A stretch of 58,308 nt of DNA, taken from the NCBI GenBank assembly GCA_902812505.1, contig CADDZQ010000002.1:1-58308 (forward strand). The letters are read 5' to 3'. The position numbers were made by a program, and so were the translations under genes. The DNA comes from an archaeon. GTDB lineage: Archaea > Thermoproteota > Thermoprotei_A > Marsarchaeales > Marsarchaeaceae. The notes beneath the pieces are model-generated. The model was not told the origin of the DNA and searched no databases. It was given only the letters and a program-made list of their open reading frames with translations. This document shows positions 1,068 to 57,184 of this stretch, piece after piece; position 1 is the stretch's first letter; every line of letters starts with the position of its first letter.

Positions 1068-1586
1068 ATGATTAGAGTCGAAAAGACCGGTGACGCATAC
1101 CTTGTATTTGGCGAAGAAAATGCTGAAATCCTGTATTGGGGTGAGTATTTCGGTCGACCCCTAAATAATTCGAAGCCTAAAATAGGGGATAAGCTCTCAC
1201 CCATGCGCCTATCAAAATATGAAGTTCTTTATCTACTTGAGCAAGGAAGGGTTATTGTGGTAAAAGAAAACAGAAGACTGAACATAGCAAAACCTACTGG
1301 TAACAGTTTAGTAGTTTATATAATATACAAAGATCTCAGATCAAAAGGACTTATTGTCAGATCCGGTTTAAAATTCGGCGCAACATTCGCCGTGTATATT
1401 AAAGGCCCAGGAATCGACCATGCCCCCTTCTTAGTCCAGGTCGTACCAGAAACCTATAGGCTAAGCGGCATAGAGGTGATACGCGCGGGCAGACTCTCCC
1501 ATGGGACAAGAAAAAGATTCGTGTTTGCAACCGTGACGGAGCAAAGAAAACCAATATATATAACTCTAAGCTGGGTTAAAATTTAG
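1068..1586 (+). CDS. endA: tRNA-splicing endonuclease EndA
   Basis: This 172-aa protein cuts BHB motifs at exon-intron junctions of archaeal precursor RNAs. The C-terminal catalytic domain is clear: YKDLRSKGLIVRSGLKFG (about 87-104), then FAVY (107-110), GPGIDH (113-118) and TRKRFV (147-152). The likely catalytic triad is Tyr110, His118 and Lys149, as in the Methanocaldococcus enzyme. Length matches single-domain archaeal subunits, which assemble as homo- or heterotetramers. The ATG at 1068 has a TATA-like element about 30 bp upstream. Its probable substrates in this window are the introns of tRNA-Thr, tRNA-Ile, cbf5 and aIF5B. Identification is secure; subunit composition cannot be told from one gene. 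Confidence 0.95.
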   Translation: MIRVEKTGDAYLVFGEENAEILYWGEYFGRPLNNSKPKIGDKLSPMRLSKYEVLYLLEQGRVIVVKENRRLNIAKPTGNSLVVYIIYKDLRSKGLIVRSGLKFGATFAVYIKGPGIDHAPFLVQVVPETYRLSGIEVIRAGRLSHGTRKRFVFATVTEQRKPIYITLSWVKI

Positions 1587-1655: not shown

Positions 1656-1748
1656 AGCCTCGGGCGGGATTTGAACCCGCGACCCACAGCTTACAAGGTT
1701 CAACCGGCTAAAGCCGACTGTTGCTCTACCAGGCTGAGCTACCGAGGC
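1656..1748 (-). tRNA. tRNA-Thr(TGT) with non-canonical intron
   Basis: Read on the minus strand, the acceptor arms GCCTCGG and CCGAGGC pair fully; the D-arm is GCTC/GAGC and the T-arm GCGGG/CCCGC, with discriminator T. After removing the 19-nt intron at 1699-1717 the anticodon arm becomes ACAGC / CTTGTAA / GCTGT, a perfect 5-bp stem with T33 and anticodon TGT. Without splicing there is no normal anticodon arm. The mature body is typical of archaeal tRNA-Thr. Confidence 0.95.
1699..1717 (-). other. tRNA-Thr intron at position 30/31 (BHB)
   Basis: This is a 19-nt intron inside the anticodon stem, not at the usual 37/38 site. On the minus strand the BHB parts in order are: outer GAG, central helix CAAC, bulge AGT cut after AG, intron hairpin CGGC-TTTA-GCCG, central helix GTTG, bulge AAC cut after AA, outer CTT. 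Cutting at these points gives the perfect ACAGC/GCTGT stem. Both 3-nt bulges and the 4-bp central helix are strict. Confidence 0.9.
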
Positions 1749-4121: not shown

Positions 4122-4949
4122 GTGGAAGAAGCAGAGGTCACAATTCTCTTTGAAAGTAAAGATAAGGTTGAGGTTGAAAGATTTAAAAGGAATTTGCTTG
4201 AACAGATTAGTCCCCACATGGGAATTAGATTCTTAGAACTGTGTTTTGATAAAAGAGAAGACCTCTTAACCAAGGGGCGAGAACTTGCGGAGAAATTTTT
4301 TAATGCGGCAGTGGGTTTGGGCGCAATCATTGCGTCTGAAAGCCAAGAGCGTCAAGAATCATCTGGACTCGCGTTTACACCTGAATGGTTCAGTTCGTCT
4401 TCTAAAACATCGGATGAAAGGACGCTAGCAGAGTGCTACGTATATGCTAAGACGTTTGGATTGAACGATTTTCCCGCAGTGCTTACGAATAAGATAGTGG
4501 TAGCCGCAGGAAGGTTGCCAAGTTTAGAAGAAGTTGCATCCCAACTTAAAATACCTGTACCATCACCCAAGGAGCCTTTAACTCAAAACATTAGACAAGA
4601 AAGGGAAAATATCCCTGTTGTCCCACGAGAGATGGGTACACAGAGCCTTACGCAGATTCAACCTGAACCACTGCATGTTCATTTGGCAGAAGAGCAAACC
4701 GAAACAACAATACTCAACTCTGACATAAGTGGGGAGCGGCAAACAGCAGTAGCAAGTAGCGCCCCAGATATCATGCTGGACGAGCAGACAAAAGCACGTA
4801 TAGTGGAAGTGTTGAAGAGAACTGGTTTTCGTGGACCAGAAGAGTGCACAGGCTGTCTATACTTTATAGAAAACGAAAACAGGTGTGCGTTACTCCATAT
4901 CGCGATCTCTGATGTGAAGAAACCTATCTGCAGGCTAAACTTGGGTTGA
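4122..4949 (+). CDS. Hypothetical protein with possible thioredoxin-like part and C-terminal Cys cluster
   Basis: The 275-aa product starts with GTG; a TATA-like element about 25-30 bp upstream suggests a leaderless transcript. The first half reads as a beta-alpha domain; the segment FPAVLTNKIVVAAGRLPSLE (about 113-132) resembles the cis-proline strand region of thioredoxin-like folds, but no N-terminal CxxC is seen. A Gln/Glu/Thr-rich linker (about 145-220) leads to a C-terminal ECTGC ... RC ... IC pattern (C-x2-C-x9-C-x14-C), likely metal or Fe-S binding. It is convergent with the next gene. No specific function can be given. Confidence 0.75.
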   Translation: MEEAEVTILFESKDKVEVERFKRNLLEQISPHMGIRFLELCFDKREDLLTKGRELAEKFFNAAVGLGAIIASESQERQESSGLAFTPEWFSSSSKTSDERTLAECYVYAKTFGLNDFPAVLTNKIVVAAGRLPSLEEVASQLKIPVPSPKEPLTQNIRQERENIPVVPREMGTQSLTQIQPEPLHVHLAEEQTETTILNSDISGERQTAVASSAPDIMLDEQTKARIVEVLKRTGFRGPEECTGCLYFIENENRCALLHIAISDVKKPICRLNLG

Positions 4950-41318: not shown

Positions 41319-41399
41319 TCAATACTCCACCTAGACTATATTCAAAGAAAATAGAAGTTATTTAAGTTTCTCTTATTAACCCAAGCGTAGAACATTCGA

Positions 41400-41484
41400 C
41401 GCCGGGGGCGGGATTTGAACCCGCGCGGCCACAAGGACCACGGGCTCTCCAGGCCCGCTCCCTGCCAGGCTAGGAGACCCCGGC
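41400..41484 (-). tRNA. tRNA-Ser(GGA), overlapping the end of cbf5
   Basis: Acceptor GCCGGGG pairs with CCCCGGC, discriminator G as expected for Ser. The anticodon arm is CGGGC / CTGGAGA / GCCCG with anticodon GGA; a long variable arm and a GCGGG/CCCGC T-arm complete a class II tRNA. Its first 15 bases are also the last five codons of cbf5 including the TAG. Confidence 0.95.
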
Positions 41485-42473
41485 ACCAGCATTTATTGGT
41501 TCGAGCACCCTTATTGGTGTTGCTACTATACCACTTTCTATACCAAGCAAGTCTTCAGCGTTCCTCAAACAGCGTACCACTTCTATAAGCTCTCCGTTTT
41601 CGGAGCAGACAAAGGCTTCGCCTCCACTTTTTATGTCATTCGATATACAAATCACGCCACGAACGCTGAGCGAAGCTCCCGTATAGAGGTTTTTCTTGGC
41701 CGATTCCCTTACGATGATTAAGGGCTTATCTACCAGTATTTCTTCTATCGGGTTAAGTAGCTTAGTTAGCTCTGATGATTCTCCCGTCTCTTTGTAAACC
41801 GACGTATAGTATGCTAGCTGATTGAGTGTCACAGTACTTGACTCAACAAATACGCCGCTCCTTATCCGTCTGAGTTCAATCATATTTATTCCCACACCGA
41901 GGGCTTCACCCACATCGAAGCATAGTTTTCGGATGTATGTTCCGGATTCAACATGAGCCTTAAACAAGACATAGTTACTATCTGATTCAAGTGGAATAAA
42001 TGAATATATACGACGCTTTCTTATGCTACGCTTAACCGCTGATTTCATTGGCGGCGTCTGATAAATTACCGTTTCAAACTCTTTCATTATATTATAGACT
42101 TCTTTAATATCGATAGTTTCATGCAACTTCATTATCCCGACATACACCTTATCCGTGTTCATAAGCCATTTAAGCAAGCGATTGGCGGAATTCAAAGTAA
42201 CAGTTAAAACGCCACTAACAGGGGGATTTCCCCGTATTCCACTAGGGTCCCCCCGTGGCCAATCTTTTTCACATCCAATAGACGACCAACCCACGCAGTT
42301 ACTTCATGGCTACTGGGTCCACGTGGCTTATCAACATTAATAAAGCTCCTCGTTAGCAGAGAGTTGACATTAGGATATAATTCGCGGGGATTCTTATAAT
42401 TCCATCTAACATCCTCCCTTAACACCAAAAACTTATCCCTATTTCTTTGAATAGGAAGAAACACCTCTATCAT
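41470..42473 (-). CDS. cbf5: rRNA pseudouridine synthase Cbf5, interrupted by a 14-nt BHB intron
   Basis: Catalytic subunit of H/ACA RNPs; also acts on tRNA. The two frames 42473-42242 and 42227-41470 join into 329 aa, the normal size. Exon 1 contains RSFINVDKPRGPSSHEVTAW and KKIGHGGTL; exon 2 begins with the rest of the Asp codon, PPVSGVLTVTL, and holds the core VESGTYIRKLCFDVG and a PUA domain. Joined, the active-site motif reads GGTLDPPVSG with catalytic Asp78, whose codon is split G|AT by the intron. Unspliced, the frame shifts and ends after about 90 codons. ATGA overlap with cmk; stop codon lies inside tRNA-Ser. Other archaeal cbf5 genes also carry introns near this site. Confidence 0.94.
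42228..42241 (-). other. 14-nt BHB intron in cbf5 mRNA
   Basis: Minus-strand parts in order: outer helix GGGGGA, central helix CCCT, bulge AGT cut after AG, loop GGAATAC, central helix GGGG, bulge AAA cut after AA, outer helix TCCCCC. The outer helix is 6 perfect bp; the central helix is 3 GC pairs plus one G-U. The cut positions are unique because neighbouring bases differ. Intron phase is 1. Confidence 0.92.
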
Positions 42474-57096: not shown

Positions 57097-57184
57097 TGGG
57101 CTCGGAGGGATTTGAACCCTCGACCTCCCGGTACCCAAGTACCACTTATCAGCCGAGCGCTCTACCAAACTGAGCTACGAGCCC
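57097..57184 (-). tRNA. tRNA-Ile(GAT) with canonical intron
   Basis: Acceptor GGGCTCG pairs with CGAGCCC, discriminator A; D-arm GCTC/GAGC; T-arm GAGGG/CCCTC. After removing the 14-nt intron the anticodon arm is CTCGG / CTGATAA / CCGGG with anticodon GAT. A CTTAAATC element about 30 bp upstream (57208-57218) is a likely TATA box. Confidence 0.94.
57133..57146 (-). other. tRNA-Ile intron at position 37/38 (BHB)
   Basis: 14 nt. Minus-strand parts: outer stem CTCGG, central helix CTGA, bulge TAA cut after TA, loop GTGGTAC, central helix TTGG, bulge GTA cut after GT, outer stem CCGGG. The central helix includes two G-U pairs. Loop and total length equal those of the cbf5 mRNA intron. Confidence 0.85.

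Follow-up and report, generated by a model that had tools for sequence, protein, structure and literature searches.

We identified a 14-nt insertion in cbf5, the gene of an essential RNA-modifying enzyme, that is very probably (about 95%) a genuine, very small archaeal pre-mRNA intron and a short form of the known bulge-helix-bulge (BHB) intron of this gene. The window, the whole stretch of 58,308 nt that was analyzed, comes from a hot-spring archaeon related to Marsarchaeota; its ribosomal protein S13 is 98% identical to that of Candidatus Marsarchaeota G2 archaeon ECH_B_1 (NEXG01000001.1). The assembly that holds the window (G000) is a metagenome-type draft of 114 contigs and 78.7% completeness. 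The inserted sequence, the two reading frames, the potential to fold, conservation in a related genome and the presence of endA are all read directly from the DNA, with the gene laid out as follows.

42242 to 42473 (-): cbf5 exon 1, the first 77 codons and the G of the Asp codon (frame reading; DKCLD domain)
42228 to 42241 (-): the 14-nt intron TGGAATACGGGGAA (sequence; identical in G001 at locus L107, described below)
41470 to 42227 (-): cbf5 exon 2, from the AT of the Asp codon to the stop codon (TruB_N, TruB_C_2 and PUA domains)

The upstream frame, 42473-42204 (-), reads ...KKIGHGGTL|VEYGEIPLLVAF-stop, and the downstream frame reads ...IRGNPP|VSGVLTV. The sequence-only reading had proposed that the two join on removal of 14 nt, and both its coordinates and its sequence proved exact: excision of 42228-42241 (-) yields a single 329-aa Cbf5 ORF without a stop codon, containing GHGGTLDPPVSGVL. 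Excision restores G|AT, the codon of Asp78, with the junction between codon bases 1 and 2; by inspection, sliding the 14-nt excision by one base places Val or Asn there instead. The spliced product contains the Pfam domains DKCLD, TruB_N, TruB_C_2 and PUA, and its TruB_N score is 3e-22 compared to 8e-11 in the unspliced second frame. Solved Cbf5 proteins in the PDB match it over almost its whole length (residues 13-317 covered in the alignment with M. jannaschii Cbf5), and GHGGTLDP falls on GHGGTLDP, so that the restored codon is in register with the Asp of GGTLDP, as had been claimed. The catalytic role of this aspartate is established for the TruB/Cbf5 family. The aspartate at the published cbf5 intron site has likewise been described as the catalytic residue (PMC2738675).

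The junction coincides with a BHB. Its central helix, bulges and loop agree with the earlier drawing, in which the outer helix had been given 6 bp; it has 9 bp including one G-U (ACGGGGGGA/UCCCCCUGU). The central helix has 4 bp with a terminal U-G pair, and the bulge borders coincide with the frame junction. Listed 5′ to 3′ along the transcript, the elements are the following.

42248 to 42256 (-): outer helix, 5′ strand ACGGGGGGA (pairing)
42244 to 42247 (-): central helix, 5′ strand CCCU (pairing)
42241 to 42243 (-): 5′ bulge AG|U, predicted cleavage after G 42242 (sequence and fold)
42234 to 42240 (-): 7-nt loop GGAAUAC, without a long inner helix (sequence and fold)
42230 to 42233 (-): central helix, 3′ strand GGGG (pairing)
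42227 to 42229 (-): 3′ bulge AA|A, predicted cleavage after A 42228 (sequence and fold)
42218 to 42226 (-): outer helix, 3′ strand UCCCCCUGU, coding for the end of Asp, Pro, Pro and the start of Val (pairing)

The probability of such a structure arising by chance was estimated from 200,000 draws with synonymous exon codons and random 14-mers as the intron. Under this null, an outer helix of at least 9 bp occurred in 0.5% of draws, and together with the central helix at a rate of 6e-5. With both strands counted, the 58-kb window contains six strict BHBs of equal strength with a loop of 4-12 nt, and one of them lies exactly at the cbf5 junction. The preferred fold at 37 °C (-24.5 kcal/mol) has an inner stem of 3 bp, GUG/UAC, which reduces the 5′ bulge to 1 nt; with the loop open, this fold has -23.4 kcal/mol, and the strict drawing with 9 bp has -20.2 kcal/mol by itself. 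When the temperature is set to 75 °C, the form with the open loop ranks first. In the 37 °C model, the 5′ site may hence correspond to a relaxed BHB instead of a strict one; a BHB or relaxed BHB lies at the intron borders, with both predicted cuts after the second bulge base.

In the proposed mechanism, the exons around the catalytic Asp codon would pair with each other in the transcript through the 9-bp outer helix, and CCCU of exon 1 would pair with GGGG at the intron's 3′ end, which would leave the two bulges exposed. In each bulge, the host's EndA would cut behind the second base; ligation of the exons, most likely by RtcB, would then restore GAT for Asp78 and the reading frame. With a 7-nt loop and no long inner helix, stability probably comes from the exon-encoded outer helix. 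We infer that the transcript is cleaved and ligated and that the spliced mRNA is translated. Two further features of the window bear on this machinery.

1068 to 1586 (+): endA, encoding the catalytic subunit of the splicing endonuclease, which has Tyr/His/Lys and, as K36, the Lys of the crenarchaeal loop (matches to structural relatives; alignment)
57133 to 57146 (-): 14-nt intron AGTGGTACTTGGGT of tRNA-Ile(GAU), with the 1+7+4+2 layout of the cbf5 intron (borders assigned by hand)

The best solved relatives of this EndA are enzymes of the crenarchaeal type, among them 3p1z and 3ajv from A. pernix; 2zyz is from Pyrobaculum. Lys 36 of the query aligns with chain position 44, the loop K44 that confers broad specificity on A. 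pernix EndA, and on this alignment the same window encodes an EndA with the crenarchaeal loop lysine. A second (beta) EndA subunit and RtcB were not found in the 78.7%-complete assembly; RtcB is present in the same-genus genome and in most of the order. The tRNA-Ile(GAU) gene at 57097-57184 holds its intron at 37/38, and because this intron has the same size and layout, the host by analogy plausibly handles such small substrates routinely. It also offers a natural comparison substrate for the cbf5 intron.

The crenarchaeal cbf5 pre-mRNA intron is known (Watanabe 2002; Yokobori 2009, PMC2738675), with published sizes of 16-44 nt and spliced cDNA reported at the same site for Sulfolobales and Desulfurococcales (PMC2738675). 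The insertion described here interrupts the catalytic Asp codon of the same gene after its first base, the same site to the base, which bears out the earlier association with that intron, and it shares the BHB motif and the expected EndA-type excision. It differs in its length of 14 nt, in its Marsarchaeota-relative host rather than Sulfolobales or Desulfurococcales, and in having essentially no inner helix beside an outer helix of 9 bp that the exons encode. The introns of archaeal tRNAs, for which PMC2738675 quotes 11-175 nt, follow the same BHB logic, as the 14-nt tRNA-Ile intron illustrates; however, the cbf5 intron lies in a protein-coding mRNA, and its outer helix is formed by codons, not by an anticodon stem. 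A search limited to open-access papers found no literature on an intron in Marsarchaeota.

The comparison of intron size and position across archaea that the sequence-only reading had recommended covered 207 cbf5 genes read in detail, with 36 families read automatically. The intron was present in 162 genes, at the same site in the 161 besides the window's own, with sizes of 13-67 nt, and was absent from 45. In the window's class, every inserted cbf5 found carries the intron at the same base; genomes of the same family have introns of 14, 14, 16, 19, 28 and 28 nt, and those of another family of the order have 17 and 17 nt. All four central-helix pairs form in 158 of the 162 intron-bearing genes, with changes on both sides of the helix (CCCT/GGGG, CTCT/AGAG, CTCT/GGAG, CACT/GGTG and CCTT/AAGG). 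Introns of 14 nt occur in families f1, f28, f30 and f40, and introns of 13 nt in six families besides that of the window (f14, f21, f28, f37, f40 and f41). The unusually small size noted earlier thus holds against the published 16-44 nt but not against these, and we rejected a claim to the smallest intron on record. The suggestion that 14 nt approaches the lower limit for EndA substrates has to be softened, given tRNA introns down to 11 nt and the 14-nt tRNA-Ile intron. No intron below 13 nt encoding Cbf5 was found with patterns that admitted lengths from 4 nt and that, phylum-wide, covered the codon pairs ACC-CTN and ACT-CTN. The longest intron has 67 nt (L023 in G012). Family f14 (L088, L092, L114, L116, L109 and L128) includes cbf5 without an intron and with introns of 13, 17 and 25 nt, and so provides a natural series for shrinkage and loss. 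The 13-67 nt range as a whole forms a natural substrate series for the minimal needs of EndA.

A function as an off-switch, in which regulated retention of a real intron silences Cbf5, would be compatible with the small spliced intron and would add a role to it. Regulated splicing has been proposed for longer cbf5 introns (PMC2738675), and the intron is widely kept in the single codon at which failure to remove it always destroys catalytic activity; however, 18 sampled families have intronless members, so the intron is dispensable, and we regard this role as unlikely.

The remaining readings deny that the insertion is an intron. Against them stands the same-genus genome (G001, Ca. Marsarchaeota G2 ECH_B_1, 93% complete; cbf5 locus L107), in which the intron and flanking BHB strands are letter-for-letter identical. 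The two cbf5 genes are 95% identical, and their differences at 46 of 1004 bases fall 13/7/26 over the codon positions, most at the third, without an internal stop, which shows a gene under constraint. A decayed cbf5 with a functional copy elsewhere might be supposed from the broken genomic frame and the incomplete genome; we rejected it as very improbable on this codon-position pattern and because no second intact cbf5 was found in the 78.7%-complete or the 93%-complete genome. Programmed ribosomal frameshifting could arithmetically join the frames by a -1 shift, but the product would be dead because the unspliced reading has Val (GTG) in place of the catalytic Asp and extra residues in the catalytic loop. 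As the inserts of relatives at the same base also cover every length modulo 3, frameshifting was rejected as having hardly any likelihood. An assembly error, named by the sequence-only reading as fatal to the intron and conceivable in a metagenome-type draft, is just as remote, since a separate genome has the same 14 nt in a gene differing at 46 bases, relatives bear introns of other lengths at the same site, and a BHB is located at the junction.

In 2009, cbf5 introns were reported only from Desulfurococcales and Sulfolobales, with an origin in their ancestor (PMC2738675), and a 2020 paper still calls the intron crenarchaeal (PMC7714728). We found it in 39 sampled families, 36 automatically and three by eye (f38, f41 and f65), a count that is no frequency because families were partly chosen for matching. 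As 26 of the 39 lie outside the window's class, within which we infer Sulfolobales and Desulfurococcales to fall from matching intron sizes and intronless families, the intron seems to be much older, or more widely distributed, than was proposed in 2009. Families are coherent in the Cbf5 tree, where the 46 groups need 45 changes, the lowest possible number; this speaks against rampant cbf5 transfer. As to common descent, the shared site and the covarying central helix stand beside the 17 changes that intron presence or absence needs on the unrooted tree; the natural reading, though not a proven one, is that the intron arose early and was lost many times. Taken alone, the Marsarchaeota-relative case adds a new host and a smaller size to a known intron, and the wider distribution is the more interesting outcome than the size. 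The best-documented archaeal mRNA intron now occurs in many lineages for which we found no report, reopening its time of origin, and many genomes may have their cbf5 annotated in two pieces.

On the Cbf5 tree, an intron length of 14 nt or less requires 6 changes. Within the tree set, an outer duplex of -15 kcal/mol or lower was present in 19 of 19 introns of 13-14 nt versus 33 of 83 longer ones, and the Lys after Asp-Pro was missing in 19 of 19 versus 27 of 83. AAR at this position breaks pairing with the Gly-Gly codons, and codons for Pro, Ala, Gly or Leu can extend the outer helix. The loss of Lys need not be caused by the intron, because intronless f14 members have Gly there. Intron length correlates with the strength of the outer helix, with a Spearman coefficient of 0.52 among 162 genes and of 0.49 among 36 families (p=0.003). 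These data suggest, as a hypothesis only, that a strong outer helix compensates for shortness, because the independent-pairs test on the tree could form just 5 pairs and had no power; part of the signal may come from lineage history or G+C content. A joint reading, which we advance tentatively at somewhat less than even odds, is that the intron stems from the phylum ancestor or near it rather than being an invention of Desulfurococcales and Sulfolobales, that it shrank independently several times to a 13-nt floor, and that on shrinkage the exons flanking the catalytic Asp kept or evolved a longer outer helix, even replacing the Lys after Asp-Pro. If so, an RNA splicing structure would constrain the protein sequence of an essential active site.

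Two further tRNA genes were also observed. The cbf5 stop codon lies inside a tRNA-Ser(GGA) gene at 41398-41485 (-), on the same strand as cbf5 (41470-42473), the last 16 nt of cbf5 being the first 16 nt of the tRNA; 5′ maturation of tRNA-Ser would therefore cut the cbf5 mRNA before its stop codon. The overlap is kept in L107, with tRNA-Ser at 4834-4921. Beside endA lies a probable tRNA-Thr(UGU) at 1656-1748 (-), to which ARAGORN gave no name; its intron of ~19 nt has a non-canonical position, within the 5′ anticodon stem.
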